Source of the DNA: Intrasporangium chromatireducens Q5-1
GTDB lineage: Bacteria > Actinomycetota > Actinomycetes > Actinomycetales > Dermatophilaceae
Reading direction: 5' to 3'
Length of the DNA stretch: 46,551 nt
Assembly (NCBI RefSeq): GCF_000576575.1
Contig: NZ_AWQS01000011.1
Span: forward strand, 1 to 46,551
The notes beneath the pieces were generated by a model, which had not been told where the DNA came from, ran no database searches, and worked only from the letters and a program-made list of their open reading frames with translations. This document shows positions 19,429-41,343 of this stretch, one piece after another (the first letter of the stretch is position 1; each line of letters starts with the position of its first letter). Position numbers and translations under genes: made by a program.

Positions 19429-20565
19429 TCAGCGCGACCAGCGGTATCCGGTCGGCTCACCCTCGCCGAGGTCGACGATGGCCGCGACGGGACCGCCGCC
19501 GTCCGGGCCCTGGTGGGCGGCGGACACCGAGACGAAGACCGCCGGGTCACCGGTCACGGCTGCCGTGACGCCACCGACGCACGACTTGATCTGGCGGTGC
19601 CAGTGGACGTCGGAGTCGTCGAGCATCGCGTTGCGTCGACCGTGGACCATGCCGTCGGCGCTCGCCTCACACTTGAGGAACACGTTGACGAGCCGGCCCT
19701 CGAGGTCGGTCCAGTGGGGACGCTCCGGCAGCTCGAGGCCGGCGTCCTTGATGGCCTCCCAGATGCCGTCCTGGTCGAGGGCGTCCCTCATCACCGAGTG
19801 GCCGATCCGGTAGCGACCGCCGACGCCGCGGGCGTTGCCGACGACGACGATCTGGGCCTGGTCGAGCTCGACGCCGGAGGAGCACGACGCGACGGACGAG
19901 TAGAGCTCGCGGTTGTGCATGATGTCCTCGTCCGAGGGCATCTCGATCTCGCCGAGGGCGACCGCGATGCCGAGGCCGGTCGTACCGTTCGACAGGTCCA
20001 TCGACTCGTGGGTGTTCTCGGTCCAGACGCGGTGACCGCGGGACTTGGCGTCGCGGATGGTGTGGATCGTGAGGAGTGGCGTCTTCGTCTGGACGTAGTG
20101 CACGTCGGCCGGGTCGGTGATGCCGGCCCGTGCCATCGCCTCCTTGACGCCGGCGGCCACCTTGTTGACCATCCCGCTGTAGCCGATCTCCTCGGGGAGG
20201 ATCGGCTCGCTCATGGCGAAGCCGACGGTGAGGCGCAGGTCGTCCGACTTCTCCGCCTTCTCCTCCGGCACCGTCGCGAAGATCGTTGCGTGCGGGCTGA
20301 TCACGCCGTCCGTGCCACCGGACCAGACGATCGGCACCTGCCGGACCTGCTCCTCGGGTGCACCCTTGGCAATCAGCACCTCGCGGAAGGCCCGGTCGGC
20401 GATGATGCGGGTGTAGTCGTTGACGCCGCCGTTGCCCTCGGTCTTGCCGATGATGGCGATGACCCGGTCGGCCTCCATGACGCCCTCGTCGATGAGTCGG
20501 GCGAGGCCGGAGGCATCGGAGACGCTGTCGATCGGGACCTTGCGCACCTCAATGGGCTGGGCCAT
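19429..20565 (-). CDS. Ring-opening amidohydrolase (barbiturase / cyanuric acid hydrolase family)
   Basis: A 378-residue member of the AtzD/TrzD/barbiturase fold, which opens barbiturate (to ureidomalonate) or cyanuric acid. The family has three Ser-Lys dyads in a threefold repeat; candidates here are Lys41 in [15 protein letters not shown], Ser82 in [12 protein letters not shown], Lys161 in QTKTP, a Ser in SCSSGVEL (~229), Lys298 in FLKCEAS and a Ser in [16 protein letters not shown] (~346-348). Sequence alone does not separate the two substrates. The neighbouring uracil-type permease, molybdenum hydroxylase and CoA-transferase favour barbiturate (inference). AGAGGACA precedes the ATG. It lies 36 nt after carbamate kinase in one operon. 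Confidence 0.9.
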
Positions 20566-20601: not shown

Positions 20602-21540
20602 TCACAGTCGTGGGGCGTCGATGACGGTGCCGACGTCACCCTCGACCGCCTCGGTGATCTGGTGGAGCGTCGTGATGACCGACCGGCCGCCGGAGCGCGC
20701 GAAGCGCAGGGCCGCCTCGACCTTCGGGCCCATCGAGCCCGAGGCGAAGTGCCCCTCGGCGGCGTACTTCTCCATCTCCTCGAGCCCGACCCGGCCGATG
20801 GGCCGGGCCTCGGGGGTGCCGTAGCCGAGCACCGCGTGCGGGACGTCGGTCGCGATGACGAGGACGTCCGCGTGCAGCTGCTCGGCGAGCAGGGCAGCGG
20901 TGAGGTCCTTGTCGATGACGGCGTCGACGCCCTCGAGGTCGCCGTCAGGGGTGCGCACGACCGGAATGCCTCCGCCGCCAGCCGCCGTGACGACGTAGCC
21001 GGCGTCGAGGAGGGTGTGCAGGGTGTGCGCCTCGAGCACCTCGAGCGGCTCCGGGCTCGGCACGACGCGGCGCCAGCCCTTCTCGCCGCGGTCCTGCCAC
21101 GTCTCCCCGTGGTCGATCAGCTTCTGCGCCTGCGCGAGGGGCAGGTAGCGCCCGATCGGCTTGGTGGGCCTGGCGAACCCTGGGTCGTCGCGATCGACGA
21201 GGGTCCGAGAGACGATGGCGGCCACCTTCCGGTCGACGCCTCGCCGCGCCAGCGCCGCCTCGAGGGCGACGAGGATCATGTAGCCGATCGTTCCCTGCGT
21301 CTGGGCGCCGCACCAGTCGAGCGGGACCGGGGGGACGACATGGGCGGCGAGCTCGTTCTTGACGAGGATGTTGCCGACCTGCGGGCCGTTGCCGTGGGTG
21401 AGAACGACGTCATGGCCTGCCTCGACGAGCCGGGCGACATGCTCCATGGCGCCCCTGATGGCCTCCCACTGCGCCTGCGGCGCCGCGCTGCCGTCCGGAC
21501 CCGTCATCGCATTGCCGCCGAGTGCGACGAGCACCCTCAT
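20602..21540 (-). CDS. arcC: Carbamate kinase
   Basis: A 312-residue enzyme making ATP and carbamate from carbamoyl phosphate and ADP. Motifs: VLVALGGNAM, LTHGNGPQVGN, the TAAGGGGIPVV nucleotide/carbamoyl region, VDAVIDKDLTAALLA and SGSMGPKVEAAL. The length is standard. The ATG has GAGGAGG upstream. No arginine deiminase or ornithine carbamoyltransferase genes are nearby, so this is not an arc operon; its partner is probably the AllFGH-like carbamoyltransferase at 40.3-44.4 kb, as AllK is in enterobacterial allantoin degradation. A PucR-type box lies 56-72 nt upstream of the start. Confidence 0.95.
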   Translation of the reverse strand: MRVLVALGGNAMTGPDGSAAPQAQWEAIRGAMEHVARLVEAGHDVVLTHGNGPQVGNILVKNELAAHVVPPVPLDWCGAQTQGTIGYMILVALEAALARRGVDRKVAAIVSRTLVDRDDPGFARPTKPIGRYLPLAQAQKLIDHGETWQDRGEKGWRRVVPSPEPLEVLEAHTLHTLLDAGYVVTAAGGGGIPVVRTPDGDLEGVDAVIDKDLTAALLAEQLHADVLVIATDVPHAVLGYGTPEARPIGRVGLEEMEKYAAEGHFASGSMGPKVEAALRFARSGGRSVITTLHQITEAVEGDVGTVIDAPRL

Positions 21541-21595
21541 GCCGACCTCCTCTCGTCCGTGTGGTGAGCCTATGGAGGAAAGCGGGCCGGTCGCG

Positions 21596-21612
21596 TTGTC
21601 ACCTCCTGCCCA
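21596..21612 (-). promoter_or_regulatory. Catabolic-island operator box 1 (carbamate kinase operon)
   Basis: TTGTCA-CCTCC-TGCCCA matches the shared TTGGCA-N5-TGCCAA box at 10 of 12 arm positions and lies 56-72 nt upstream of the carbamate kinase start. Confidence 0.6.
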
Positions 21613-21657
21613 ACGCGCCGGTGGCGGTTGGCAGATCTGTGCTGTCCCTCACGCCCG

Positions 21658-21825
21658 ATCGAGCGTGCGCGTTTCCCGATCGAGCGTGCGCGTTTCCCCA
21701 TCGAGCGTGCGCGTTTCCTGATCGAGCGTGCGCGTTTCTCGATCGACCGTGCGCTCTTCGCGTTCGAGCGTGCGCGTTTCGCGTTCGACCGTGCGCGTTT
21801 CGCGTTCGAGCGTGCAGCCTGCGCG
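21658..21825. repeat. 21-bp tandem array 1, eight units, intergenic
   Basis: Eight adjacent units of exactly 21 bp start at 21658, 21679, 21700, 21721, 21742, 21763, 21784 and 21805. Typical unit: ATCGAGCGTGC followed by GCGTTTCNNG. The first four begin ATCGAG and the later ones mostly TTCGA(G/C). There are no unique spacers. The array fills most of the gap between the carbamate kinase promoter and the stop of the carboxyltransferase gene. It is related to arrays at 41089 and 42382. Confidence 0.95.
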
Positions 21826-21832
21826 GACTGAC

Positions 21833-23335
21833 TCAGGCCCGGCCGAGGTCCCGGTAGCGCTCCAGCCGCGCGGCGAGCCGCTCCGCTCGGTCCTGACGGG
21901 CCAGCTCGGCCAGCTCGTGCTGGATCGTCTGGCTCATCCGCCGGCAGAACTCGGCCGGCTCGTCGGCGGCATCGGGATGCTCGGCCACGATCCGGTCGAC
22001 GATGCCGGCCTCGAGCAGGTCGATCGAGCGAACCCGTTGCGCGTCGGCCATCTCCGGGGCATGGCTGGTGTCTCGGTGCACGATCGCCGAGGCGCCCTCC
22101 GGCGGCAGCGGCGACAGCCAGGAGTGCTGGGCGCTGATGACCCGATCGGCGGGCATCAGGGCGAGGGCACCGCCGCCGGTGCCCTCGCCCAGCAGGATGC
22201 ACAGGGTCGGCGCGTCGAGCATGACGAGCTCGGCCAGGCACCGAGCGATCTCGCCCGCCATGCCGCGCTCCTCCGCCTCCTTCGACAGCGCAGCCCCGGC
22301 GGTGTCGATGACGGAGACGAGCGGCAGGTTGAGCTCCCGGGCCAGGCGCATGCCGCGCTGGGCCATCCGGAGCCCGGCGGGGGAGAGCGGGTCGAGCAGC
22401 TGGCCCCGCCGGTCCTGCCCGAGGACGATGCACGGGGCGCCGCCGAACCGGGCCAGCGCCATGAGCAGCCCCGGGTCGTTCTCGCCCTGCCCGGTGCCGT
22501 GCAGCGGCAGCACGTCGGTCGCGCCGAGCTTGAGCAGGGCCCGCACACCGGGGCGTTCCGGTCGCCGGGACCGGGTGATCGACTCCCAGGCCGGCAGGTC
22601 GGGCAGCTGCTCGCGCTGCAGCTCGGGCACCTCGGGGAGGTTCTCCCGGGGCCCCATCAGCACGGTCAGGGCCCGGTCGGCCGTCTCGGCGAGGGCCTCG
22701 ACGGGCAGGATCGCGTCGATGAGGCCGTGCTCATAGAGGTTCTCCGAGACCTGTACGCCGTCGGGGAAGGGCCGCTCGAAGAGCGCCTCGTAGACGCGGG
22801 CCCCCAGGAACCCCACCGTCGCGCCCGGCTCGGCGACCGTCACGTGGCCGAGCGAGCCCCAGGAGGCGAAGACCCCTCCGGTGGTGGGGTGCCGGAGGTA
22901 GACCAGGTAGGGCAGTCCCGCCTGCTTGAACTCGGTGCAGGCGGCGCTGATCTTGATCATCCCGACGAACGCCGGCGTGCCCTCCTGCATCCGGGTCCCA
23001 CCCGAGCTCGGTGCGGCGAAGAGGGGCAGCTCCTCCCGACGAGCACGCTCGAACGCCAAGACGATCCGCTCCGCGGCGGCGGCGCCGATCGAGCCCGCCA
23101 GGAAGCGGAACTCGCCGGCGATCACGGCCACACGCCGTCCGCGGATCCGCCCCTCGCCGGTGATGACGGCCTCGTCGCACCCGCTGCGCTCGGCAGCGGC
23201 AGCCAGCTCAGCGGCATACGGGCTGTCGGGGGCGGTGGGCTGCACGGGGGTCCGGTCCCAGCTCGTCCAGCTGCCCTCGTCGAGGACGGTCGTGAGCAGC
23301 TCGAGCGCGCCGAGGCGCTGCGTGGAGCTCGTCAT
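21833..23335 (-). CDS. Fused carboxyltransferase (AccD-AccA / malonate decarboxylase MdcDE-like)
   Basis: A 500-residue crotonase-fold protein. The N-terminal half is beta-subunit like (VAVIAGEFRFLAGSIGAAAAERI, SSGGTRMQEGTPAF, HPTTGGVFASWGSLG) and the C-terminal half alpha-subunit like (LPLVSVIDTAGAALS, LLGEGTGGGALALMPADRV). I see no Cys4 zinc ribbon at the N-terminus and no biotin carboxylase or biotin carrier gene nearby. It may therefore be a biotin-independent malonyl-thioester decarboxylase, as MdcD/MdcE are, and not an acetyl-CoA carboxylase (inference). The ATGA overlap with the CoA-transferase stop shows tight coupling. Confidence 0.8.
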   Translation of the reverse strand: MTSSTQRLGALELLTTVLDEGSWTSWDRTPVQPTAPDSPYAAELAAAAERSGCDEAVITGEGRIRGRRVAVIAGEFRFLAGSIGAAAAERIVLAFERARREELPLFAAPSSGGTRMQEGTPAFVGMIKISAACTEFKQAGLPYLVYLRHPTTGGVFASWGSLGHVTVAEPGATVGFLGARVYEALFERPFPDGVQVSENLYEHGLIDAILPVEALAETADRALTVLMGPRENLPEVPELQREQLPDLPAWESITRSRRPERPGVRALLKLGATDVLPLHGTGQGENDPGLLMALARFGGAPCIVLGQDRRGQLLDPLSPAGLRMAQRGMRLARELNLPLVSVIDTAGAALSKEAEERGMAGEIARCLAELVMLDAPTLCILLGEGTGGGALALMPADRVISAQHSWLSPLPPEGASAIVHRDTSHAPEMADAQRVRSIDLLEAGIVDRIVAEHPDAADEPAEFCRRMSQTIQHELAELARQDRAERLAARLERYRDLGRA

Positions 23336-24516
23336 GACGGCGCGTCCCGGTCCTGCTCGTCGAGCCAGGCTCGCACCGACTCGTTGTGCTCGCCGAGCAG
23401 CGGTGGATGCTGGTGGTCCGAGCGGCCTCCGGCGAAGGCATTGTCGTCCAAGCGAATCGGCGGTCCGGGGATCTGGATCGAACCGAGCACGGGGTGGTCG
23501 ACGTCGAGGACGAGGCCCTGCGAGCGGGTCTGCTCCCACTCATAGACGCGGTCGAGCGTGCGCACCTCGCCCGCAGGAACGCCGACCTCGGCCAGCTTCG
23601 CGAGCAGGTCGGTGAGCGGATAGGGGGCGAACGCGGCGTCGAGCAGCTCGATCACCTTGTCGCGGTTGGCAACCCGTTCCCGGTTCGTCGTCAGCCCGGG
23701 AGTGGTCGGGTCGATCCCGAAGGCCGTCGCGAGCCTGACCCAGAGTCCCTCACTGCCGCACGAGATCTGGACCTTGCCGTCCTTGCAGGTGAAGAGACCG
23801 TACGGCGCGATTGACGGGTGGTGGTTGCCCTGGGCCGTGGGCACCTCACCGGCGACCGTGTAGCGGGTCCCCTGGAAGGCGTGCACCCCGACGATGGCCG
23901 CGAGCAGGGACGTGCGAACGACCCGGCCCCGCCCGGTTGTGTTGCGCTCGTGCAGGGCGGCGGCGACCCCATACGCGCCGTACATCCCCGCGAGCAGGTC
24001 ACCGATCGGCACACCCACGCGCTGCGGGTCGTCGGGGCCGCTGCCGGTCAGCGACATGAGGCCGCCCTCGCCCTGGGCGATCTGGTCGTAGCCGGCGCGT
24101 CCGCCCTCGGGTCCGTCGTGGCCGAAGCCGCTGATCGAGAGGATGACGAGGCGCGGGTTGAGCTCATGGAGACGCTCGACGGAGAAGCCGAGCCGGTCGA
24201 GCACCCCCGGACGAAAGTTCTCGACGAGCACGTCGCCGTGCCGCACGAGGCGGGCGAGGACCTCACGTCCGTCGTCGGACTTCAGGTCGAGGGTGATCGA
24301 CTCCTTGTTGCGGTTGCAGGACAGGAAGTACGTCGAGACCGGGTCGTCCTCCGGCCCGACGAACGGCGGGCCCCAGCCCCGCGTGTCGTCGCCGTGCCCC
24401 GGTGACTCGACCTTGATGACGCGAGCGCCCATGTCTCCCAGCATCATTGCCGCATGGGGGCCGGCGAGGGCCCGGGACAGGTCGATGACCACGATGTCCT
24501 CGAGTGGTGCGCCCAT
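23332..24516 (-). CDS. CaiB/BaiF family (class III) CoA-transferase
   Basis: A 394-residue CoA-transferase moving CoA between carboxylic acids. The N-terminal VIDLSRALAGPHAAMMLGDMGA followed by VIKVE, then GDVLVENFRPGVLDRLG and SISGFGHDGP, is characteristic; the catalytic Asp of the family lies in the YDQIAQGEGG block (about residue 167). The substrate cannot be read from sequence. Coupling to the MdcDE-like carboxyltransferase suggests malonate to malonyl-CoA. The ATG at 24516 has GGAGCGG upstream, and an operator box lies 66-82 nt before it. Confidence 0.9.
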   Translation of the reverse strand: MGAPLEDIVVIDLSRALAGPHAAMMLGDMGARVIKVESPGHGDDTRGWGPPFVGPEDDPVSTYFLSCNRNKESITLDLKSDDGREVLARLVRHGDVLVENFRPGVLDRLGFSVERLHELNPRLVILSISGFGHDGPEGGRAGYDQIAQGEGGLMSLTGSGPDDPQRVGVPIGDLLAGMYGAYGVAAALHERNTTGRGRVVRTSLLAAIVGVHAFQGTRYTVAGEVPTAQGNHHPSIAPYGLFTCKDGKVQISCGSEGLWVRLATAFGIDPTTPGLTTNRERVANRDKVIELLDAAFAPYPLTDLLAKLAEVGVPAGEVRTLDRVYEWEQTRSQGLVLDVDHPVLGSIQIPGPPIRLDDNAFAGGRSDHQHPPLLGEHNESVRAWLDEQDRDAPS

Positions 24517-24535
24517 TTCCGCTCCCTTGCTAGCC

Positions 24536-24545
24536 GTATGCCGCT
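24536..24545 (+). repeat. Single intergenic copy of GTATGCCGCT
   Basis: An exact copy of the dispersed 10-mer in the CoA-transferase 5' region, without an inverted partner. Confidence 0.8.
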
Positions 24546-24581
24546 GTGCCCGAGCCTATGCGCCCACCTGACCTCAGGCGC

Positions 24582-24598
24582 GTGGCAGGTTGTGGCAA
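24582..24598 (-). promoter_or_regulatory. Catabolic-island operator box 2 (CoA-transferase operon)
   Basis: On the minus strand TTGCCA-CAACC-TGCCAC matches the shared box at 10 of 12 arm positions. It lies between the divergent CoA-transferase and SDR genes. Confidence 0.55.
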
Positions 24599-24652
24599 GG
24601 GGTCGGCGCTGCGCTGGTCAGGTGTTGCCAAGTGCGGTGGCGACCAAGGTCG

Positions 24653-24658
24653 TAGGGT
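24653..24658 (+). promoter_or_regulatory. Probable -10 element of a leaderless SDR promoter
   Basis: TAGGGT lies 8 nt before the GTG of the SDR gene, with no Shine-Dalgarno in between. Confidence 0.4.
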
Positions 24659-24666
24659 CTGGTCTC

Positions 24667-25368: not shown

Positions 25369-26211
25369 TCAGGTCACAGCTCGAAGGACGACGCCGCGCC
25401 ACGTGGCTGGGCGACGACCGAGGAGGCGCTCGAGGTCATCACTCTCGTCGGCGAAGCCCTCGCGGTCGTAGGCCTCGAACATCGCCAGGAGCGCGGCCGT
25501 TCGTTCCTCGCCCAGCCCGCCCCCTGGTCCAGCAAGCCACTCCGACAAAGGGATCTGTTCGGCGACAACTTCGCGGCCCAGCACGTCGGCGGCCACCGCC
25601 GCGAGCTCGCGGACGGAGTACCGCTCGGGCCCGACCAAGTCGTAGGAGCGGCCTTCGTGCCCGCACTCCGTCAGCACCCGCGCCGCGACCTCCGCCACGT
25701 CGTCGAGGTCGACGTTCGTGAAGGGCGCGTCCAGCGAGTAGGGCACGCGGATCCGCCCGCCGAGGGCGGAGCCGAGGACGTTCTGGTGGTATGCCGCTGG
25801 GCGCAGAACCGTCGCGCCGGGAAGTCGCACTCGGATCAGCCGCTCTGCCTCGCCCTTGCGGACGTGGTGTGGCATCGCGTCGTCGTCGGGATGCAGCACC
25901 GAGTGGAAGACGAACCGCGAAACCCCTGCGGCACCAGCAGCGTCCGCGACCCTTCGGGCCATCCCGACCTCGTCGGGGTGCACGTTGGGAGCCAGGTGAT
26001 AGACGGCATCAGCGCCCGCCAGAGCGCGCTCGAGACCCAGCCCCGTCTCGAGGTCAACGGTCACCGGCGAGACGAGCTCAGCGGCATACGGCTCGCTTGT
26101 CGACCCGGGACGAACCGCCGCGCGCACCCGCGCGCCGCGCTCCAGGAGAGCGCGCGTCACGGCGCGGCCGGTCTTGCCGGCCGCGCCGATGACGAGAACC
26201 GTTGCGGTCAC
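25369..26211 (-). CDS. NmrA-like NAD(P)-binding protein
   Basis: A 280-residue atypical SDR of the NmrA/NAD(P)H azoreductase type: VLVIGAAGKTGRAVTRALLERGARVRAAVR carries the GxxGxxG dinucleotide site, then ADAVYHLAPNV, VFHSVLHPDDDAMPHH and PYSLDAPFTNVDLDDVAEVAA. Such proteins act as redox sensors or quinone/NADPH-dependent reductases; no specific role is evident. The GTG at 26211 overlaps the hyuB stop (GTGA), so it is the last gene of the hyuA-hyuB operon. It contains two copies of the 10-mer repeat. Confidence 0.85.
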   Translation of the reverse strand: MTATVLVIGAAGKTGRAVTRALLERGARVRAAVRPGSTSEPYAAELVSPVTVDLETGLGLERALAGADAVYHLAPNVHPDEVGMARRVADAAGAAGVSRFVFHSVLHPDDDAMPHHVRKGEAERLIRVRLPGATVLRPAAYHQNVLGSALGGRIRVPYSLDAPFTNVDLDDVAEVAARVLTECGHEGRSYDLVGPERYSVRELAAVAADVLGREVVAEQIPLSEWLAGPGGGLGEERTAALLAMFEAYDREGFADESDDLERLLGRRPATWRGVVLRAVT

Positions 26212-28232
26212 AGCCAATCGACGTCGGCCGCCTCGACGCCGGACGCGAGACGCCCGTAGCCGGGCCCGCGGTCGAAGAACGGCTGGTCCCCGCGTGACGC
26301 CCGCAGTTCGGAGCGGAGCGCGTCCGAGGCGGCCACGTCGATGACTGGCTCGTCACGCGACCCGGACGCAATGACCCCGTAGTCGGACCGCGCGCCCGCG
26401 AAGGAGACCTTCCCCCAACGGAGGTCGCGCTCGACCTCGTCGTAGGGCCGGTCGAGCGGGTCGCCCCAGCCGCCACCGCCGGTCGTACGGATCCGGATGA
26501 CCTGGCCGGCCTTGACCGGCTCGGCGTCCGCGAGGGCATCGACGACACGCTCGTCGGGACCGCCAAGGTCGATCGTGACCTCGAAGGGTCGACCGGCCTT
26601 GCCGCCCTTGACGCCCCAGCACGCGAGAATCGACCGGTCCGCGATCGACATGAAGTTCGCGTCCTTGAGCATCCGGATGTGCTTCTCGTAGCCCAGGCCG
26701 CCCCGGTACCGGCCGGCCCCGCCGGAGTCGACCGCGAGCCCGAGGCGCTCGACGATGAACGGGAAGCGGCTCTCGGTGAACTCGGTCGGCAGGTTGCGCG
26801 AGTCGGGCACGACGTGGATGGTGTCCTCGCCGTCGGCGTAGTAGCGCCCGCCGGATCCGCCGCCGAGCACCTCGCGCATCAGGTAGTCGTTGCCGTCGCG
26901 GTCCTTGCCGTAGACGCCGGTGTAGCGGATCGTCTCCTGGTCGGCCGGCATCTTGCCGTCGACGGCCTTGGCGACGACCCCGGCGAGCACGCCGAGGAGG
27001 CGCAGGATGACGAACGTGCGGGCGTTGGTCGGCGCCGGGTAGACCGGGGTGAGCAGCGTCCCCTTCTCCGGGAAGCGCATCTCGATGAGCGGCACGATCC
27101 CCTCGTTGACGTCGAGCTCGGCCATCCGCTCGGGGCTGTCCGCGAGGTTGCGCAGGATGGGCGCGAGCCACTTCTTGAGGAAGTTGCCGCCGACGTAGTC
27201 GCCGCAGTGGTTGATCGGCCCCTTCGCCTGCGGTGCGGTCCCGGTGAAGTCGACGATCAGGCGCGGGCCGTTGCCCGGGCCGCCGGTCGAGGTCTTCGTC
27301 AGGGTGATCCGCTGCGTGTGCAGCTTCGGGTCGTCGACCCCGTCGTGCTCGGCGTAGTCCTCCCAGACGTACTGGCCGTCGGGGATCTTCGAGAGGATCT
27401 CGCGCCGGTAGGTCTCGGTCGTGTTGTCGAGGATGGCGTCGAAGGCCGCCTCGACGGTGTCCCGGCCGTACCGGGCGAACAGCTCCGAGAGCCTCCGGGC
27501 ACCCATGAGGCACGCCGAGCACTCGGCGTCGAGGTCCGCAGCCAACGAGTCCGGCATCCGCGAGTTGCGCGTCATGATCCGAAGCGCCGCGCGGTTCGGA
27601 ACGCCCTTGTCCCACAGCTTGATCGGCGGGACGGACAGGCCCTCCTCGTGCACGCTGGTCGCGCCGGACGGCATCGACCCGGGGCAGGCGCCGCCGATGT
27701 CGTCGTGGTGGCCGAAGGCCTGGACGAAGGCGACGACCTCGCCCTCGTGGAAGACCGGCACGGTGACGCAGAGGTCGGGCAGGTGCCCGATGCCGCCCTC
27801 CGACTCGTAGACGTCGTTGTGGAAGAAGACGTCGCCCTCGCTCATCGTCTCGAGCGGGAAGTCGCGGACGATGGGGTGGACGAGGGCGCTGTACGACCGA
27901 CCCGTCAGCTTGCGCAGCTGGCGGTCGTGGATGCCGGCGCGGAAGTCGTGCGCGTCCCGGATCATGGGCGAACGCGAGGTGCGCGAGATCGCGGTCTCGA
28001 CCTCCATCTCGACGCTCGCGAGCGTCCCCTCGACGATCTCGACGATGATCGGGTCGACCTTCGTCCCCTCGGCCGTCAGGCGGCCACCGTGCTCGTACGA
28101 CGTGGGCAGCCCGGCCGGGTTGACCGGCTCGGACGCGATGTAGCGCTCGAGAGCCGCGCCGGTCAGAGGTATGACGCTGAGCTGGCTCGCATTGTCGGGC
28201 GCGGTCGGCTGGGTGGTTGGGGTCGCAGTCAC
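26208..28232 (-). CDS. hyuB: Hydantoinase B/oxoprolinase-family subunit
   Basis: A 674-residue HyuB subunit, which pairs with HyuA in ATP-dependent opening of cyclic amides or related amide hydrolysis. Visible family blocks: VDPIIVEIVEGTLASVEMEVETAISRTS at the N-terminus, HNDVYESEGGIGHLPD, PDGQYVWEDYAEHDG, NHCGDYVGGNFL, and the C-terminal glycine-rich VKAGQVIRIRTTGGGGWGDP. The GTG start overlaps the hyuA stop by 4 nt. The true substrate of this pair is unknown; hydantoin, oxoproline, acetone and lactams are used by relatives. Context suggests an N-heterocycle or a linear amide from the same pathway. Confidence 0.9.
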   Translation of the reverse strand: MTATPTTQPTAPDNASQLSVIPLTGAALERYIASEPVNPAGLPTSYEHGGRLTAEGTKVDPIIVEIVEGTLASVEMEVETAISRTSRSPMIRDAHDFRAGIHDRQLRKLTGRSYSALVHPIVRDFPLETMSEGDVFFHNDVYESEGGIGHLPDLCVTVPVFHEGEVVAFVQAFGHHDDIGGACPGSMPSGATSVHEEGLSVPPIKLWDKGVPNRAALRIMTRNSRMPDSLAADLDAECSACLMGARRLSELFARYGRDTVEAAFDAILDNTTETYRREILSKIPDGQYVWEDYAEHDGVDDPKLHTQRITLTKTSTGGPGNGPRLIVDFTGTAPQAKGPINHCGDYVGGNFLKKWLAPILRNLADSPERMAELDVNEGIVPLIEMRFPEKGTLLTPVYPAPTNARTFVILRLLGVLAGVVAKAVDGKMPADQETIRYTGVYGKDRDGNDYLMREVLGGGSGGRYYADGEDTIHVVPDSRNLPTEFTESRFPFIVERLGLAVDSGGAGRYRGGLGYEKHIRMLKDANFMSIADRSILACWGVKGGKAGRPFEVTIDLGGPDERVVDALADAEPVKAGQVIRIRTTGGGGWGDPLDRPYDEVERDLRWGKVSFAGARSDYGVIASGSRDEPVIDVAASDALRSELRASRGDQPFFDRGPGYGRLASGVEAADVDWL

Positions 28233-30373
28233 TGGTCCGACTCCTTGGTGATGACGAGGTTGCCGTAGGCGTCGACGCGGACGACGAAGCCAGGGTGGAC
28301 GGGCACGGTGGAGCCGAACTCCTCGATGATCGCCGGTCCGGTGATGGTGTCGTCGGCACGAAGGTCCGGGCGCCAGTAGACGTCAGTCAGCACGTAGCCC
28401 ACGGATGCGTCGAAGCAGACCTTGCGGGTGGAGCGGCGGGCCCGGCCCACGCCCTGGTCGGCGGCGTCCGTCCCCGGGATCTCGCGCAGCTCGGGGCGGG
28501 CGATCGGCCCGATGCCGGAGACGCGGAGGTTGACCCACTCGACCTGCTGGTGCGGGTCACCGCGGAAGTCGTAGCCATAGAGGGCGCGGTGCTCGGTGTG
28601 GAAGGCGTCGGCGACGGTCTCGACGAGCTCGCGGGTGACGGGCCCGTCGGGCATCGGGACCCGGACCTCGAAGGCTTGGCCGAAGTAGCGCAGGTCGGCA
28701 GTCCGGGCGTACCGATGGGCCGAGCGGTCGAAGCCCTCGGCGTCGAGGGCCTGGGCCGCCCGGTCGGTGAGGTCGTCGAGGACCGTCTGGACGGCGTCGA
28801 GGTCGAGCCCCTCGTGCTTGGCGACGGCCGTCTGGACGTAGTCGTTCTTGACGTCGACGGTGAGCAGGCCGAACGCCGAGACGTTGCCCGGGTTCTGCGG
28901 CACCACGACGCCGGCAAGGCCGAGGATGTCGACGAGGCGGCAGGCGAGGAGCGAGCCGGAGCCGCCGAAGGTCGCGAGCATGAAGTCGCGGACGTCGAGG
29001 CCTCGCTTGACGCTGACCTGACGGAGCGCGTTGGCCTGGTTCCAGGCCGAGATCTCGAGGATGCCGACCGCGCACTGGTCCGGCGAGAGGTCGAGCTTGC
29101 CAGCGAGGTTCTCGATGCCGGCGCGGGCCGCGTCGATGTCGAGTGGGATCTCGCCACCGAGCAGGTGCGGGGGGATCCGGCCGAGGAGGACGTGCGCGTC
29201 GGTGATGGTCGGCTCGGTCCCGCCCTTGGCATAGCAGAGCGGGCCCGGGTCTGCACCCGCGGACTGGGGGCCAACCTTGAGGGTGCCCTCCGGGGAGATC
29301 CAGGCGATCGACCCACCGCCCGCGCCGACTGTGACGACGTCGATCATCGGGATCTTGCTCGGGTAGGCCCCGACGCTGCCCTCGGTCGTCAGCGTCGGCT
29401 CGCCGTCGAGGACGACCGACACGTCGGTGCTCGTGCCCCCGCCGTCACAGGTGAGCACCCGGTCGAAGCCGGCCCGCTTGGCGATGAGACCCGCTCCGAG
29501 TGCACCGGCCGCCGGGCCGGAGAGGACGGTCGTGATCGGCTGGTTGACGACCTCGTGCGCGGACAGGACCCCGCCGTTGGACTTCATGACATAGAAGGGC
29601 AACCCACGGGGGGCCTCGCCCCCCGTGCTCCCCCCGAAAGGCCGGCGTGGCTGGCTGAGGAAGTCCTGAAGCCGGTCGTGGATGTTGCGCACGTAGCGCG
29701 CCACCTTCGGCTTCACGGCAGCATCGACGAGGGTCGTCATGGACCGCTCGTACTCGCGGTACTCCCGCAGCACCTCGCTCGAGATCGAAACCACGGCCTC
29801 CGGGTGCTCCTCCGCGAGGATCTCGCGCATCCGCCGCTCATGGGCGTCGTTCGCATAGGAGTGCAGGAAGCAGACGCCGAGCGTCATGACGCCTCGGTCG
29901 CGGAACCAGCGGGCCACCCGGACGGCGCCCTCCTCGTCGAACGGACGCAGCTCGTTGCCCTCGAAGTCGAAGCGGCCCTCGACCGTCCTGACGAGGTTGG
30001 CCGGCACGATCCGCGGTGGCTTGACCCAGAAGTAGCTGTTGCCGTAGCCGTCCGGCACCGCCTGGCGCGCGATCTCGAGGATGAACTCGTAGCCCTCGGT
30101 CGTGATGAAGCCGACCCGTTCGACCTTGCCCTCGAGCAGCTGGTTCGTCGCCACGGTGGTCCCGTGCGAGACCGCCGTCACGTCCTCGCCGGTCGCGCCG
30201 AGCAGGTCGAGCACCTTGGTCACGCCGTTGATGAAGCCGTCCGCCGGGTTGGACGGGGTGGACGGGGTCTTCGTCGTGACGAGCTCGCCCGTGTCCTCGT
30301 CGAGCGCGACGACGTCGGTGAAGGTGCCACCGGTGTCGATGCCGATCCTGATGCGCCGTGAAGTCATGGCCAC
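28229..30373 (-). CDS. hyuA: Hydantoinase A/oxoprolinase-family subunit
   Basis: A 714-residue ATP-binding partner of HyuB with an actin-like nucleotide site: RIGIDTGGTFTDVV at the N-terminus, VSHGTTVATNQLLEG, VLSGPAAGALGAGLIAKR, LTCDGGGTSTDVSVV and VGAGGGSIAW. Length and motif order are normal for the family. The GTG at 30373 is used; an ATG at 30367 is equally plausible, and an in-frame TGA just upstream rules out an earlier start. GGAGG lies about 16 nt upstream, too far to be ideal. A near-perfect operator box sits 30-46 nt before the start, so this pair belongs to the inferred regulon. Confidence 0.92.
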   Translation of the reverse strand: MAMTSRRIRIGIDTGGTFTDVVALDEDTGELVTTKTPSTPSNPADGFINGVTKVLDLLGATGEDVTAVSHGTTVATNQLLEGKVERVGFITTEGYEFILEIARQAVPDGYGNSYFWVKPPRIVPANLVRTVEGRFDFEGNELRPFDEEGAVRVARWFRDRGVMTLGVCFLHSYANDAHERRMREILAEEHPEAVVSISSEVLREYREYERSMTTLVDAAVKPKVARYVRNIHDRLQDFLSQPRRPFGGSTGGEAPRGLPFYVMKSNGGVLSAHEVVNQPITTVLSGPAAGALGAGLIAKRAGFDRVLTCDGGGTSTDVSVVLDGEPTLTTEGSVGAYPSKIPMIDVVTVGAGGGSIAWISPEGTLKVGPQSAGADPGPLCYAKGGTEPTITDAHVLLGRIPPHLLGGEIPLDIDAARAGIENLAGKLDLSPDQCAVGILEISAWNQANALRQVSVKRGLDVRDFMLATFGGSGSLLACRLVDILGLAGVVVPQNPGNVSAFGLLTVDVKNDYVQTAVAKHEGLDLDAVQTVLDDLTDRAAQALDAEGFDRSAHRYARTADLRYFGQAFEVRVPMPDGPVTRELVETVADAFHTEHRALYGYDFRGDPHQQVEWVNLRVSGIGPIARPELREIPGTDAADQGVGRARRSTRKVCFDASVGYVLTDVYWRPDLRADDTITGPAIIEEFGSTVPVHPGFVVRVDAYGNLVITKESDQ

Positions 30374-30402: not shown

Positions 30403-30419
30403 TTGGCACATCCTGCCAA
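30403..30419. promoter_or_regulatory. Catabolic-island operator box 3 (hyuA-hyuB), perfect palindrome
   Basis: TTGGCA-CATCC-TGCCAA has perfectly complementary 6-bp arms with a 5-nt spacer. It is the best member of the set and lies 30-46 nt before hyuA. Confidence 0.65.
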
Positions 30420-31741: not shown

Positions 31742-32392
31742 CTACCGGCGCCGGGCGATGCGCGCGCCGACGAGGACGCCGGCCAGGGCGAGCAGGCCGC
31801 CGACGACGGCACCGGCCGCAAAGCTGCGCCCGTCCACCGCGACCGGCGCGGCAGGGGCCTTGCCGGCGTAGACACGCGGTTCGGCGGCACCGCCGGCCTG
31901 GGGTGCGGCGGCAGTGCTCGGCAGGGGTGCGACCGCGCGCTCCTCCGGGCGAACTCCGGCGATGTCGGCGTCGAGGGCCGCGAAGAACTGACCAGCCATC
32001 TTCTTCGTGACGCCCGACAGCATCCGCTGGCCGACGCCACCGATGGGACCGCCGACCTCGGCGTCGGCGTTGTACGTCACCCGGGTCCCGCCGTCCTCGC
32101 ACAACTCGAGAGCGACGTCGACGTCGGCCTCCACTGTGCCAGGACTACCCGCGCCAGAAGCCTTGAGCCGCAAGGATTTCGGCGCCTCGACATCCTCGAG
32201 CCGCACGGTCCCGTCATAGGCACCCCGCACCGCGGCGACGCCCATCGTGACCCGCATCTTGTAGGCGTTCGCACCGTCCTCGGTCAGCGACTCGCAGCCG
32301 GGGAGCGTCCGCGCGAGAACGGCCGGCTCGTGGATCGCCTGCCACACCTGGTCGGGGGTCGCGGACAGTGAGACGGCTCCGGTGATCTTCAT
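31742..32392 (-). CDS. coxG: CoxG-like SRPBCC protein with C-terminal membrane anchor
   Basis: A 216-residue protein. Residues 1-150 form a START/SRPBCC domain of the CoxG type (MKITGAVSLSATPDQVWQAI, LARTLPGCESLTEDG, GGPIGGVGQRMLSGVTKKMAGQFF); a Pro/Ala linker and a C-terminal hydrophobic helix (SFAAGAVVGGLLALAGVLVGARI) follow. CoxG recruits molybdenum hydroxylases of the CO-dehydrogenase class to the membrane and the respiratory chain, so this links the CoxL/CoxMS enzyme to quinone reduction. AAGGAG precedes the ATG, and the gene starts 5 nt after the coxL-like stop. Confidence 0.88.
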   Translation of the reverse strand: MKITGAVSLSATPDQVWQAIHEPAVLARTLPGCESLTEDGANAYKMRVTMGVAAVRGAYDGTVRLEDVEAPKSLRLKASGAGSPGTVEADVDVALELCEDGGTRVTYNADAEVGGPIGGVGQRMLSGVTKKMAGQFFAALDADIAGVRPEERAVAPLPSTAAAPQAGGAAEPRVYAGKAPAAPVAVDGRSFAAGAVVGGLLALAGVLVGARIARRR

Positions 32393-32396
32393 CGAG

Positions 32397-34847
32397 TCAC
32401 TCCTTCGGTATGCCGCTGAGCTCAGCGGGCGCGGACGTGCGGGTATGGGGGTGGCGGAGTGATGGCAGGTCTCCGGCGGAGTGGCGTCGGCGCAGGTCCC
32501 ACAGCTCCGCCGGTGAGATCGGCATCGAGGTGATCGGGAAGCCCTCCGCGTCGGAGATCGCCGAGGCGATGACGGCCGTGACCGGGATGCAGCCCGCCTC
32601 GCCGGCGCCCTTGATGCCCAAGGGGTTCAGCGGGGACGGCGTCTCGAGGTGGTCGGTCTCGACGTGCGGCACCTCGGAGGCGTAGGGGAGCAGGAAGTCC
32701 ATGAACGAGGCGTTGAGCAGCTGCCCGCCCTCGTCATAGACCATCCGCTCGTAGAGCGCCCCGCCGACGCCTTGTGCGACGCCGCCGTGGACCTGGCCCT
32801 CGACGATCATCGGGTTGATCATCGGCCCGCAGTCGTGGATGACGCAGTAGCGCAGGATCTTGATCTCGGCGGTGACAGGGTCGGTCTCCACGATCGCGGC
32901 GTGCATGCCGTTGGCGAAGGTCGCCTGGGTGGGGGAGTAGAAGTCCTTCCCCTCGAGGCCGGGCTCGTCGTCGTCGGCCACCGGTGGCTTGTCAGGGTCG
33001 AAGGTGCCCGCGAACTGCGTTGCGGCCCTGGCCGCCTCGTCGAAGGCGTAGCGGAGCGGGTTGGACAGAACCGAGATGGTCCCGAGCGAGATCGACTGGC
33101 CGGGCGCGCCCTTGACCGACACCTCGCCGTCGACGATGTCGAGGTCGTCGACCGACACCTCGAGGGCCTCAGCGGCGATCCGAAGGGCCTTGGCTCGGAC
33201 GGCGCGCGCGGCGAGGGCGACGGCGTTGCCGCTCATCACCGCCGCGCGGGAGGCGAAGGTGCCGACGGCGTAGGGCATCTTCCGGGTGTCGCCCGTCGTG
33301 ACGTGGACGTCCTCGACCCGCACCCCGAGCTCCTGCGCGACGACCTGCGCGAAGGCCGTCTCGTGGCCCTGCCCCTGCGACGTGAGACCGGTGGAGACGT
33401 TGACCCGCCCCGACGTCTCGACCTGGACGTGCCCGCCCTCGTAGGGCCCGACGCCGGTGCCTTCGACGTAGCAGCCGATCCCGAGCCCGACCCGGCGCCC
33501 CTCGGCCTCGGCCTTGGCCCGGTAGTCGGCGAAGTCGTCCCACCCGACCAGGGCCTTGAGCTTGTCGAGGCTGGCCGGGAAGTCGCCGGAGTCGTACTTG
33601 AGCGGCCGGCCGTCCTGGAAGAGGAGCCCGTGGTCGTAGGGCATTTCGTCGGGGAGGATGAAGTTGCGCGACCGGACCTCCGCCCGGTCGAGGCCGAGGT
33701 GGTCGGCGATGGCGTCCATCGTGCGTTCCATGAGGAAGCAGCCCTGCGGCCGGCCGGCCCCGCGGTAGGGCGTCACGATGACGGTGTTGGTGTAGAGCGA
33801 CCAGAACTCGCAGCGGTAGGCGCCGGGCTTGTACGGGCCGAGCAGCTGCGTCGACGTGATGATCGGGACGATGATCCCGTACGGCGTGTAGGCCCCGTTG
33901 TCGTGCCAGAACTTGACGTCGAGCGCCGTGACGACGCCCCGCTCGTCGAAGCCGACCTCGACGTGCTGCAGCTGCCCGCGCTCGTGCGCGGACGAGATGA
34001 AGTGCTCCCGACGGTCCTCGGTCCACTTGACCGGGTGCCCGAGCATCCGCGCGGTCCACGAGACAAGGACCTCCTCGGGCCACGGGTGCATGATCTTCAC
34101 CCCGAAGCCGCCGCCGACGTCCGGGGCGATGCACTCGACCTTGGCGAGCGGCAGCCCGAGACGGGCCGCCACGGCGGCGCGGACCCCCGTGGACGTCTGG
34201 GTCGAGGACCAGAGCCGCAGCTCGCCGCGCTCGTCGTCCCATCTGGCATAGACCCCTTTGCCCTCCATGGGCATCGAGGCGCTGCGCTCGACCTCGAGGT
34301 CGAGGGTGAGCCGGTTGACGCTTGAGGCGAGGGCGCGCTCGACGTCGCCGACCTCCTGGACCATGTGCGCCGCGACGTTGCCTGGCACGTCCTCGTGCAC
34401 GAGCTCCGTTGCGGCCCGCGCCTGTTCGAGCCCGACGACGACCGGCAGGCGGTCGTAGGTGACGACGATCCGCTGCGCGGCGTCCTCGGCGATGTAACGG
34501 TCCCGGGCGACGACCATGACGACGGCCTCACCGACGTGGTTGACCTCGTCCTTGGCGAGCGCGTAGCCGGTGCGGCCGTGCGTCAGGGTGGGGTGCGGGA
34601 TGAGGAGCGGGAGCGGATCGGCCATCCGCTCGGGCAGGTCCTCCCACGTGTAGATCCCGACGACGCCCTCGATGTCGACCGCCTCGCTCGCGTCGACGTC
34701 GACGATCCGGGCGTGCGCGTGCGGGCTGCGGACGAACGCCGCCTCGAGCGCGTCGTGCCCGAGGTCGTCGAGGTAGCGCCCCTGTCCCGTGACGAGCCGC
34801 GGGTCCTCGCGGCGCTTGACCGGTGCCCCGAACATCCGCGTCGTCAC
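32397..34847 (-). CDS. Molybdenum hydroxylase large subunit (CoxL/XdhB-like)
   Basis: An 816-residue molybdopterin-cytosine-dinucleotide-binding subunit of the xanthine dehydrogenase superfamily. Motifs: FGAPVKRREDPRLVTGQGRYLDD, PDVGGGFGVK, PYRGAGRPQGCFLMERTMD and the catalytic-Glu block GIKGAGEAGC (about residue 750). The active-site loop is not AYRCSFR, so it is not a true form I CO dehydrogenase. The family hydroxylates N-heterocycles or aldehydes; with the uracil-type permease and barbiturase, uracil/thymine oxidation is plausible but unproven. The GTG start overlaps the CoxMS stop. The last residues (ELSGIPKE) lie inside a GTATGCCGCT element. Confidence 0.9.
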   Translation of the reverse strand: MTTRMFGAPVKRREDPRLVTGQGRYLDDLGHDALEAAFVRSPHAHARIVDVDASEAVDIEGVVGIYTWEDLPERMADPLPLLIPHPTLTHGRTGYALAKDEVNHVGEAVVMVVARDRYIAEDAAQRIVVTYDRLPVVVGLEQARAATELVHEDVPGNVAAHMVQEVGDVERALASSVNRLTLDLEVERSASMPMEGKGVYARWDDERGELRLWSSTQTSTGVRAAVAARLGLPLAKVECIAPDVGGGFGVKIMHPWPEEVLVSWTARMLGHPVKWTEDRREHFISSAHERGQLQHVEVGFDERGVVTALDVKFWHDNGAYTPYGIIVPIITSTQLLGPYKPGAYRCEFWSLYTNTVIVTPYRGAGRPQGCFLMERTMDAIADHLGLDRAEVRSRNFILPDEMPYDHGLLFQDGRPLKYDSGDFPASLDKLKALVGWDDFADYRAKAEAEGRRVGLGIGCYVEGTGVGPYEGGHVQVETSGRVNVSTGLTSQGQGHETAFAQVVAQELGVRVEDVHVTTGDTRKMPYAVGTFASRAAVMSGNAVALAARAVRAKALRIAAEALEVSVDDLDIVDGEVSVKGAPGQSISLGTISVLSNPLRYAFDEAARAATQFAGTFDPDKPPVADDDEPGLEGKDFYSPTQATFANGMHAAIVETDPVTAEIKILRYCVIHDCGPMINPMIVEGQVHGGVAQGVGGALYERMVYDEGGQLLNASFMDFLLPYASEVPHVETDHLETPSPLNPLGIKGAGEAGCIPVTAVIASAISDAEGFPITSMPISPAELWDLRRRHSAGDLPSLRHPHTRTSAPAELSGIPKE

Positions 34848-36400
34848 GCCGGGCCCCCTTCCGCTCCAACCGATCCCGTATGCCGCTGAGCCGGGTCGTG
34901 CTCGGTTGCGTCCTCGCGCTCGTCGTCCTCACGCTCGGTGCGCAGCTCGGAGGCACGCAGCACGCTCTTGACGATGTTCTGGTAGCCGGTGCACCGGCAG
35001 AGGTTGCCGGAGATCGCCTCGCGCGCCTCGTCCTCGGTCGGTTTGGGGTTCTCGTCGAGGAACGCGCTGATGGTGGTGAGGAAGCCCGGGGTGCAGAAGC
35101 CGCACTGCAGGCCGTGGCACTCGGTGAACGCCTGCTGCACGGAGTTCATCCGGGTGCCGTCCTCGCGGTCGCGGGCGTCCGGTGCGTCGCAGAGGCCCTC
35201 GACCGTCGTCACCTCGTGACCCTGGGCCGACACGGCGAACATGAGACACGAGCGCATCGGCTGGCCGTCGACGAGGACCGTGCAGGCGCCGCACACGCCG
35301 TGCTCGCAGCCGACGTGCGTGCCGGTGAGGCGCAGGTCGTGGCGCAGGAAGTCCGACAGGAGGCGACGCGGCTCGACGGTCGCGCTCCGCTCCTTCCCGT
35401 TGACCCGCACCGTCACCCGCCCACTCTCCCCGAACGCGGTGTTCGGGGGCGAACTCACCGGTGCACCGCTGCGTTCGGTCAGGAACCACGAGTTCGATCC
35501 ACGGGCGGGAGGCGGTTCGTGCGCCCCGGAGTCGGCCACGGCCTGGATGAGGGCGCGACGGGTCAGCTCCGTGACGAGCATTCGCCGGTAGTCGGCACTT
35601 GCGTGGATGTCGCTCTCGGGCTCGACGAAGTTGCGCACCCGCTCGGCGACGTCGTCCAGCCGCCGACCGAAGGCGCCCCCGTCGGCGACCTCGACGCCCG
35701 ACACGGCGTCCGAGACGTCGAGCACGGCCGGCACGTCGGTCACGGAGACGAAGCCCACCTTCGCCCCGCTCACCGTGCCGCCCTCATCGAGGGTGACCGC
35801 CACGCCGACGCCGGCCAGCGCGTAGTCCCCGTGCCGCCGGGCCGACTCGAGGAACGCGGTCCGCATGCCGGGGCCGAAACGGCGGAACCGGACCCCGACG
35901 GACAGCTCCGACTCGTCGAGCGAGGTCTCCAGCGGCCCGAGGAAGAACTCGCCCCACGGCACCTCACGGCTGCCCGATGGCCCGGCCACCTCGACGACGC
36001 CGTCACAGAGCGCGAGGACCGTCGGCATCTCGCCGGCCGCGTCGGCGTGTGCGATCGAGCCGACGGTCGTGCCCCGGTTGCGGATCGCCGGGTGGGCGAC
36101 GTTGAGGAGGGCCTGCCGCAGGAGGGGGAGAGCGGCATACGCGTCCTGGTCGCGCTCGAGCGCGGCGTGACGCACGAGCGCGCCGACCCGGACCCACTCG
36201 TCGGAGACCTCGACCTGGTCGAGCCCAGCGATCGCGTTGATGTCGACGAGGTGGGCCGGGGATGCCAGGCGCATGTTGAGCATCGGGATGAGGCTCTGGC
36301 CGCCGGCGAGGACCTTGCCGTCGTGACCCACCTCGGTGAGCACCGCGACGGCGGCCTCAACCGAGTCGGGGGAGTGGTGGACGAAGGGTGCGGGCTTCAC
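34844..36400 (-). CDS. Fused FAD subunit and [2Fe-2S] subunit of the molybdenum hydroxylase (CoxM-CoxS)
   Basis: A 518-residue fusion of two proteins that are normally separate. Residues ~1-290 are the FAD-binding subunit (LAGGQSLIPMLNMRLA, RNRGTTVGSIAHADAAGE). Residues ~328-518 are the iron-sulfur subunit with both clusters: CEHGVCGACTVL (about 366-374) for the ferredoxin-like cluster, and CGFC (about 434) with CRCTGY (about 468) for the second. A Pro/Ser-rich linker of ~40 residues joins them. A C-terminal acidic extension is extra. It supplies electron transfer from the Mo site to FAD. The GTG at 36400 is weakly supported; an operator box is 68-84 nt upstream. Confidence 0.93.
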   Translation of the reverse strand: MKPAPFVHHSPDSVEAAVAVLTEVGHDGKVLAGGQSLIPMLNMRLASPAHLVDINAIAGLDQVEVSDEWVRVGALVRHAALERDQDAYAALPLLRQALLNVAHPAIRNRGTTVGSIAHADAAGEMPTVLALCDGVVEVAGPSGSREVPWGEFFLGPLETSLDESELSVGVRFRRFGPGMRTAFLESARRHGDYALAGVGVAVTLDEGGTVSGAKVGFVSVTDVPAVLDVSDAVSGVEVADGGAFGRRLDDVAERVRNFVEPESDIHASADYRRMLVTELTRRALIQAVADSGAHEPPPARGSNSWFLTERSGAPVSSPPNTAFGESGRVTVRVNGKERSATVEPRRLLSDFLRHDLRLTGTHVGCEHGVCGACTVLVDGQPMRSCLMFAVSAQGHEVTTVEGLCDAPDARDREDGTRMNSVQQAFTECHGLQCGFCTPGFLTTISAFLDENPKPTEDEAREAISGNLCRCTGYQNIVKSVLRASELRTEREDDEREDATEHDPAQRHTGSVGAEGGPA

Positions 36401-38038: not shown

Positions 38039-38131
38039 GTTGACTCCTTTGTCGGTCCGTGTCACCTCGTGACATGGCTCACTCTCCCCACCCTGTAGCG
38101 GCAAAGTATCGCCGCACGGAGCCCGCTTCAT

Positions 38132-41340: not shown

Positions 41341-41343
41341 CCC

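Follow-up and report, generated by a model that had tools for sequence, protein, structure and literature searches.

The malonate operon of Rhizobium, MatA/MatB/MatC, comprises a GntR regulator, the MatB synthetase, the MatA decarboxylase (PF05292) and the MatC carrier. The oxidative pathway of pyrimidine breakdown described by Soong et al. (work cited in PMC4051656) reportedly proceeds through barbiturase and ureidomalonase. In the Mdc system, decarboxylation is ACP-based and biotin-independent, with MdcA acting as the transferase and MdcD-MdcE as the decarboxylase, and MdcD-MdcE are structurally carboxyltransferase-like and act on malonyl-CoA in vitro (PMC5534430).

The window analysed here is a 46,551-nucleotide stretch of Intrasporangium chromatireducens Q5-1 (NZ_AWQS01000011.1, positions 1 to 46,551). 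Two ATG-initiated genes on its minus strand appear, on balance, somewhat likely to form a malonate-consuming module, a CoA-based counterpart of Mdc in which a transferase would convert malonate to malonyl-CoA and an AccD-AccA-like fusion would convert malonyl-CoA to acetyl-CoA and CO2. The upstream gene (23332..24516) encodes a family III (CaiB/BaiF) CoA-transferase of 394 aa, a proposed acyl-CoA:malonate CoA-transferase, and the downstream gene (21833..23335) encodes the fusion, a proposed malonyl-CoA decarboxylase of 500 aa without a zinc ribbon. From the CDS coordinates, the two share the stop/start sequence ATGA at 23332..23335, which bears out the 4-nt overlap reported in an earlier note on this DNA. 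The transferase matches CoA_transf_3 over its full length (residues 5-378, E 3.6e-117). Its Asp173, which we take to be the catalytic Asp of family III, is present in all 46 aligned family members, the window protein counted, and the succinate-hydroxymethylglutarate CoA-transferase of chain 9br7 has an Asp at the aligned position.

The fusion matches the Carboxyl_trans (E 9.8e-57) and ACCA (E 3.5e-55) profiles. Together with the conservation of the pair, the E-values of both proteins put their family matches and their pairing beyond chance. In profile alignments the AccA match covers fusion residues 237-499 and the AccD match residues 7-225, and because the latter begins at AccD profile position 56, the zinc-ribbon part of AccD is absent. 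Six Cys residues are found in the fusion, the first at residue 53, and neither the profile alignment nor the Cys positions reveal the Cys4 zinc ribbon of AccD. The earlier description of a fusion with both halves and no Cys4 ribbon was therefore correct. Domain profiles and the predicted structure place a carboxyl transferase domain or fold in both halves. The best full-length Foldseek match of the predicted fold was the 12S subunit of a biotin-dependent transcarboxylase, and the top VIA-align match of the second half was an AccA (Z 33.8); MdcD/MdcE chains are absent among the 50 VIA-align entries listed, which is not evidence of a differing fold. The fusion scores below the NCBIfam equivalog cut-offs for accA (155.9 vs 319.3 bits) and accD (163.9 vs 317.45 bits) and below those for MdcD (39.7 vs 278.15 bits) and MdcE (31.2 vs 237.15 bits), and it does not match the malonyl-CoA decarboxylase domain PF05292 at E 0.001.

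Glycine motifs are kept in both halves; across 18 aligned rows G153-G154 and G388 are invariant and G389 is nearly so. The second-half motif, G388-G389, presumably serves biotin binding, and carboxybiotin chemistry may remain compatible with the retained motifs. At 27 positions (L065 left out of the count) the ribbon-less fusions are fixed to a different residue than the AccD-AccA group, for example L350-S351 in place of the AccA P-G. The altered AccA motif GAYPG was rejected as proof of lost biotin binding, as it is likewise altered in the AccA of 9m70 and is not diagnostic.

In a phylogenetic tree, from which the L072 fragment was left out beforehand, the ribbon-less fusions group in a clade of their own, apart from E. 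coli AccD-AccA and from the ribbon-bearing fusions. This clade may include actinobacterial AccD3 (M. tuberculosis Rv0904c). Based on gene calls, a CxxC is missing from the first 110 residues in 37 out of 40 fusions, although one of the 37 (L070) was called too short to tell. Like AccD/AccA and the three distant CxxC-bearing fusions (L066-L068), the ribbon-less fusions have homologous halves and the glycine motifs of both halves; unlike them, they lack a Cys4 ribbon, showed no biotin partners in their surroundings, and have a separate clade and other fixed residues. The same tree, a quick one whose Mdc rows came from two of the four loci that exceed the cut-off, did not cluster the fusion with MdcD/MdcE. 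Membership in MdcD/MdcE was rejected on the scores far below cut-off, the separate tree placement and the AccD/AccA-like sequence. Of 296 genomes from the phylum, 4 have MdcD above the cut-off, this genome not among them; below-cut-off matches to TIGR03133 occur in 266 of 296 and are taken to be related carboxyltransferases. Classical malonyl-CoA decarboxylase (PF05292) was found in 2 of 197 genomes, again not including this one. The two loci that carry it (L183, L184) show weak GntR matches (41 and 53 bits) and neither a MatC nor a CoA-transferase match.

The pair lies among genes that suggest pyrimidine breakdown. On the minus strand, it is flanked on one side by a carbamate kinase of the ArcC family (20602..21540) and a ring-opening amidohydrolase of the AtzD/TrzD family (19429..20565). 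The closest solved relative of the latter is a 'Barbiturase' (5hwe, E 8.9e-203), the top-scoring cyanuric acid hydrolase reaching E 3.4e-95, and NCBIfam places it above the cyanuric acid amidohydrolase cut-off (472.9 vs 360 bits). On the other side, also on the minus strand, lie an NmrA-like NAD(P)-binding protein (25369..26217), hydantoinase B/oxoprolinase-like (26208..28232) and hydantoinase A/oxoprolinase-like (28229..30367) subunits, the last a candidate amide hydrolase of the pathway, a CoxG-like protein with the large and FAD/2Fe-2S subunits of a molybdenum hydroxylase (31742..36400) that may oxidize pyrimidines, a xanthine/uracil permease family transporter (36566..38131) and a PucR-type regulator (38405..40198). 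AllH-, FdrA(AllF)- and AllG-like genes on the plus strand (40291..44369) form a carbamoyltransferase set that could phosphorolyse ureidomalonate. As in the oxidative pyrimidine pathway, a barbiturase-like ring-opening enzyme is encoded in the same operon as the pair, with malonate as the expected product; unlike in that pathway, ureidomalonate may undergo phosphorolysis instead of, or beside, hydrolysis, to judge from the AllHFG-like set and carbamate kinase.

An operator shared across this island had also been proposed, and we searched for the dyad TYGGCA-N5-TGCCRA, using the pattern read backwards as a control. Four exact sites occur in the 4.8-Mb genome, compared with two for the control, and two of the four are in the window, at 30403..30419 (TTGGCA-N5-TGCCAA) and 36468-36484; a further candidate site at 38132-38148 has one mismatch. 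Upstream of the CoA-transferase there are only two copies, at 24582 and 24615, each with two mismatches. When two mismatches are allowed, the window holds 12 matches where 6.76 would be expected, a number also attained in 7 of 100 shuffles of 12 or more matches. The operator is thus clear upstream of other island genes and degenerate before the fusion/transferase pair, and the claim for that promoter is weak. No sigma-70-like promoter or terminator was predicted in 21500-24800.

Conservation of the pair was assessed in other genomes. Both genes are present, at the thresholds used, in 52 of 197 genomes, the window's own included, and are adjacent in 47 of the 52. Since the neighbour gene calls are composition-based, with approximate starts, some approximate neighbours and the fusion uncalled in three of 80 loci, linkage was recounted in six frames. 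A transferase lies within 2.5 kb of the fusion, and on its strand, in 40 of the 80 named actinobacterial loci, which are the best 80 of 578 matches. These counts are not independent, as named loci and relatives share genomes (e.g. L095/L076, L098/L069, L096/L054) and the stretches from relatives were hand-picked. At E 1e-90, 17 of 69 fusion-bearing genomes have no transferase, including those with ribbon-type fusions (G149, G180) and a distant one (G191). Of the 52 genomes with an AtzD-family gene, 50 also have the transferase; the Fisher tests on gene co-occurrence treat genomes as unrelated.

The pair recurs in two settings. The first is operons with barbiturase-family, ArcC and HyuAB genes; the second is GntR-MatC-transferase-fusion operons, whose carrier is of the dicarboxylate (MatC) type. 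In each of the genomes G018 and G082 there are two pairs, one in either setting. The two settings would have malonate in common. MatC was seen in only 6 of the 80 named loci (best 80 of 578), and its link to the pair is scattered, with 8 label changes on a 116-row tree (L065 left out; no shuffle baseline). In having a GntR-type regulator and a MatC carrier beside a two-enzyme activation/decarboxylation pair, the second setting resembles the Rhizobium Mat operon; it differs in that the CoA-transferase and fusion would replace MatB and MatA.

We infer the substrate, CoA donor, decarboxylation and biotin independence of the pair as follows. The transferase would use its catalytic Asp to pass CoA to malonate, the donor being either acetyl-CoA or succinyl-CoA. 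The AccD-like half of the fusion would hold malonyl-CoA, and its carboxyl group would leave as CO2 to give acetyl-CoA. With acetyl-CoA as donor, the product would prime the next round, a CoA-based analogue of the ACP-based Mdc cycle. Malonate would be supplied in this window by barbiturate, at the end of pyrimidine base breakdown, and in other genomes by import through the MatC-type carrier. The proposed pair would thus resemble Mdc in having two crotonase-fold halves, a transferase loading malonate and biotin-free decarboxylation of a malonyl thioester. Unlike Mdc, its halves are fused and AccD/AccA-like, score far below the Mdc cut-offs and belong to a separate clade, its transferase is of family III, and no dedicated ACP was seen among the window genes scanned. 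Those genes cover part of the window, and neither MdcA nor MdcC was named among them.

The fusion could instead be a biotin-dependent carboxyltransferase, either carboxylating acetyl-CoA or, in the reverse direction, handing malonyl-CoA's carboxyl group to a biotin carrier encoded elsewhere that would in turn feed another carboxylase. Its carboxyltransferase-like sequence and predicted fold, which match AccD/AccA and transcarboxylase 12S best, are consistent with this, as are the glycine motifs retained in both halves and the three Biotin_carb_C matches in the genome, all on other contigs. However, the fusion lacks the zinc ribbon, and carboxylation in the forward direction would run counter to the setting with a MatC carrier. 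In addition, no biotin carrier was detected with a three-sequence profile within up to 10 kb on each side of the 80 named loci (best 80 of 578), yet the three ribbon-bearing fusions sit with both a biotin carboxylase and a biotin carrier. A biotin carboxylase was found within 10 kb of one of these 80 loci, 7.7 kb away and on the opposite strand. A six-frame search of the window, using two profiles that were each built from three sequences, detected neither partner, in agreement with the earlier note. We consider biotin-dependent carboxyl transfer unlikely; the narrower case of an ordinary acetyl-CoA carboxylase subunit was rejected, as the fusion has no ribbon, scores below the cut-offs, falls in another clade and had no partners detected nearby.

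It is quite unlikely that the same chemistry serves a different acid, be it malonamate, methylmalonate formed from thymine by way of methylbarbiturate, or some other short dicarboxylate. Among family models the transferase comes nearest to those of succinate-glutarate CoA-transferase and succinyl-CoA:mesaconate CoA-transferase, scoring far below every cut-off, and the AllHFG-like set with carbamate kinase may point to a malonamate intermediate. Against this, some pairs are linked to MatC-type carriers with no barbiturase-family gene in the stretch read, which argues for malonate, although Pfam describes MatC just as a dicarboxylate carrier. It is very improbable that the transferase just supplies malonyl-CoA for fatty acid synthesis and that the fusion either is a carboxylase-like enzyme in its own right or regulates the malonyl-CoA pool. 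This reading would fit the 40 of 80 named fusions (best 80 of 578) without such a transferase within 2.5 kb, among them many from Nocardioides and Rhodococcus, three from Actinomadura and others, a few at contig ends (e.g. L156). It would also fit the 16 of 50 genomes that have an AtzD-family gene and transferase and no fusion at E 1e-30, from which it follows that the fusion is not obligatory; locus maps inspected by eye gave no common candidate for a replacement gene adjoining the transferase. Of 62 linked pairs, however, 58 have the transferase first and 28 overlap by 4 nt (by composition-based gene calls), and both features recur in different branches of the tree.

The malonate-consuming reading, CoA transfer to malonate followed by decarboxylation, had been put forward in the earlier note with MdcD/MdcE as the model. 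Its core gains independent support from the conserved pair, the MatC and GntR neighbours, the barbiturase-like enzyme and the separate clade of the ribbon-bearing, biotin-associated relatives; kinship with MdcD/MdcE did not hold up. Counting against the reading are the fusions with no transferase nearby, the genomes that have an AtzD-family gene and transferase and no fusion, the retained glycine motifs, the structural matches to transcarboxylase 12S and AccA, and the small number of loci with MatC. A broader proposal, to which we give nearly even chances, is that the ribbon-less actinobacterial clade is a biotin-independent malonyl-CoA decarboxylase, derived from a fused AccD-AccA through loss of the ribbon, and that with its transferase it would constitute a self-priming, CoA-based third route beside Mdc and MatA/MatB. 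A literature search at the level of listings and abstracts, its coverage leaving out most subscription papers, returned no description of the pair. If the proposal is true, many actinobacterial genes likely to be named for acetyl-CoA carboxylase would encode enzymes of the reverse reaction, which would matter for metabolic models and bear on the engineering of malonyl-CoA supply. The pair would also provide candidate last steps of oxidative pyrimidine breakdown, and a carboxyltransferase-type pair would serve as a decarboxylase in a second lineage.

The CoA-transferase gene (23332-24516, minus strand; 394 aa, Pfam CoA_transf_3) and the gene for an AccD-AccA-like fusion (21833-23335, minus strand; 500 aa, Pfam Carboxyl_trans and ACCA) are a conserved pair that probably consumes malonate. 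A single ATGA holds the transferase stop codon and the fusion start codon, bearing out the 4-nt overlap claimed in the earlier note. Because the first cysteine of the fusion is residue 53, the claimed absence of a Cys4 zinc ribbon also stands. The fusion falls below the NCBIfam cut-offs for AccD (163.9 bits against 317.45, beginning at profile position 56) and AccA (155.9 against 319.3), and its matches to the Mdc (ACP-based malonate decarboxylase) beta and gamma models are weak (39.7 and 31.2 bits; cut-offs 278.15 and 237.15). The top NCBIfam score of the transferase, also below cut-off, was for succinate-glutarate CoA-transferase (317.2 of 750 bits); the nearest solved chain is 4ed9, a CaiB/BaiF family protein, followed by 9br7, a succinate-hydroxymethylglutarate CoA-transferase.

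Among 197 genomes, including this one, the fusion (E 1e-30) was found in 69, the transferase (E 1e-90) in 75 and both in 52. The two genes lie within 1 kb in 47 of these 52, on opposite strands in G039; the fusion match is split in two pieces in G007 and G093, in different frames in the latter. Transferase-first order was seen in 58 of 62 linked pairs and the exact 4-nt overlap in 28 (window left out, some genomes counted twice). Named genomes were scanned with an 18-row alignment, and the best 80 of 578 loci, all actinobacterial judging from record titles, were analyzed. A transferase lies within 2.5 kb of the fusion, always on the same strand, in 40 of these 80, an AtzD-family (barbiturase/cyanuric acid hydrolase) gene within up to 10 kb in 13, and a MatC-type carrier gene within the same distance in 6. 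In three genomes of family f7 (L070, L086, L090), which place near Brevibacterium in the tree, the pair sits within an apparent his/trp gene run, the products being assigned by eye. One genome, G016, holds a full fusion and, elsewhere near an AtzD-family gene (L072), a short fragment (108 residues aligned, 78% identity) that is likely a decayed copy.

Two N-terminal CxxC motifs were present in 3 of 40 fusions read (L066, L067, L068). The one tested has a Zn_ribbon_ACC domain and adjoins genes for biotin carrier and biotin carboxylase; all three loci match carrier and carboxylase profiles, which were built from these same loci. By eye, their neighbours resemble type II polyketide synthase genes. 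Within up to 10 kb, the best 80 of 578 loci gave no biotin carrier profile match and one carboxylase match (L102, 7.7 kb away, other strand). The three Biotin_carb_C matches of the present genome are all on other contigs, in agreement with the earlier note that no carboxylase is nearby.

In a quick 123-row tree (SH-aLRT support only, midpoint root; the long row L065 of unsure placement), three groups separate: the 117 ribbon-less fusion rows, E. coli AccD-AccA together with the three ribbon fusions, and two Mdc rows. There are 27 positions where four AccD/AccA-type rows are fixed for one residue and at least 95% of 116 fusions have another in common, and the AccA P-G after GAY is L-S in the fusions. 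The fusion may still use carboxybiotin chemistry, given the glycine pairs kept in both halves (G153-G154; G388 and, nearly always, G389) and the transcarboxylase-like fold: full-length matches of the AlphaFold model (pLDDT 83.1, pTM 0.86) include transcarboxylase 12S and propionyl-CoA carboxylase beta subunits, and the top VIA-align match of the second half is an AccA (Z 33.8). A separate fusion of MdcD- and MdcE-like halves occurs as a single frame at L180:1369-3093, the first half above the MdcD cut-off and the second assigned by eye.

On the pair's strand are a barbiturase-like gene, a carbamate kinase, a HyuA/HyuB-like pair, an NmrA-like protein, a molybdenum hydroxylase set, a xanthine/uracil-type permease and a PucR regulator; AllH-, FdrA- and AllG-like genes (40291-44369) are on the opposite strand. 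The ring-opening enzyme carries the NCBIfam name cyanuric acid amidohydrolase, whereas among solved chains its match to 'Barbiturase' 5hwe (E 8.9e-203) is stronger than that to the best cyanuric acid hydrolase (E 3.4e-95). According to PMC11326118, E. coli AllFGH converts oxalurate to oxamate and carbamoyl phosphate, the latter usable by carbamate kinase. Of the 52 genomes carrying an AtzD-family gene (197 surveyed), 51 also have AllG, which suggests that ureidomalonate is cleaved by phosphorolysis through the AllH/FdrA/AllG-like set. Barbiturate would pass through ureidomalonate to malonamate and carbamoyl phosphate, and malonamate to malonate, with HyuA/HyuB as candidates for this amide step.

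A second setting has the order GntR (divergent), MatC, transferase, fusion in six loci from three families (L083, L084, L085, L087, L088, L089), and no AtzD-family gene was found in these stretches. All four carriers tested matched MatC_N (PF07158), and two regulators tested from MatC-type loci matched GntR. Two genomes hold two pairs each, one by an AtzD-family gene and one by MatC (L082 and L084 in G018; L081 and L083 in G082, respectively). Label changes on a 116-row tree, as raw counts, were 8 for MatC, 15 for AtzD and 13 for the pair. No MatC_N match above cut-off was found in the present genome, consistent with malonate being produced internally.

The window also carries repeats. Tandem arrays of 21-bp units lie directly 3' of the fusion (21654-21815, 7.7 copies), in the 3' end of the AllH frame (41087-41311, 10.7 copies) and within the FdrA frame (42380-42491, 5.3 copies); a core word common to the first and second has exact copies here and on just one further contig of the genome. 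A dispersed repeat, GCTCAGCGGCATACGGC, has 14 matches in the window at up to 3 mismatches (0.32 expected), at 23206, 24533, 26076, 34875, 44435, 44488 and elsewhere. Counting both strands, its core, TCAGCGGCATACG, has 157 copies in the genome against 1 for the reversed control; some copies form inverted pairs spaced 19 bp apart, resembling a hairpin element. The dyad TYGGCA-N5-TGCCRA occurs in island promoter regions (30403, 36468 and, with one mismatch, 38132). Genome-wide it has four exact sites, two of them in the window, against two for the control.

For the Pseudomonas Mdc enzyme, PMC5534430 describes CoA bound mainly by MdcD, an oxyanion hole of two main-chain amides and a malonyl group likely contacting MdcE Gln100, Tyr102 and Ser142; in vitro, MdcD-MdcE also decarboxylates malonyl-CoA, with lower activity than human malonyl-CoA decarboxylase. 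A fused AccD-AccA that no longer works with a biotin partner could act in this way too. If acetyl-CoA is the donor, the pair would run a cycle similar to that of MdcA plus MdcD-MdcE, using free CoA where the Mdc cycle uses ACP. Two further observations count against a malonate-decarboxylating pair. The fusion is absent from 16 of 50 genomes with an AtzD-family gene and the transferase, gaps that classical malonyl-CoA decarboxylase (PF05292; 2 of 197 genomes, G089 and G185) does not explain. Half of the named fusions (best 80 of 578) have no transferase nearby, and the fusion may therefore serve malonyl-CoA balance more broadly. The fusion is probably something other than a subunit of acetyl-CoA carboxylase, and the pair is most likely a new form of malonate decarboxylation.
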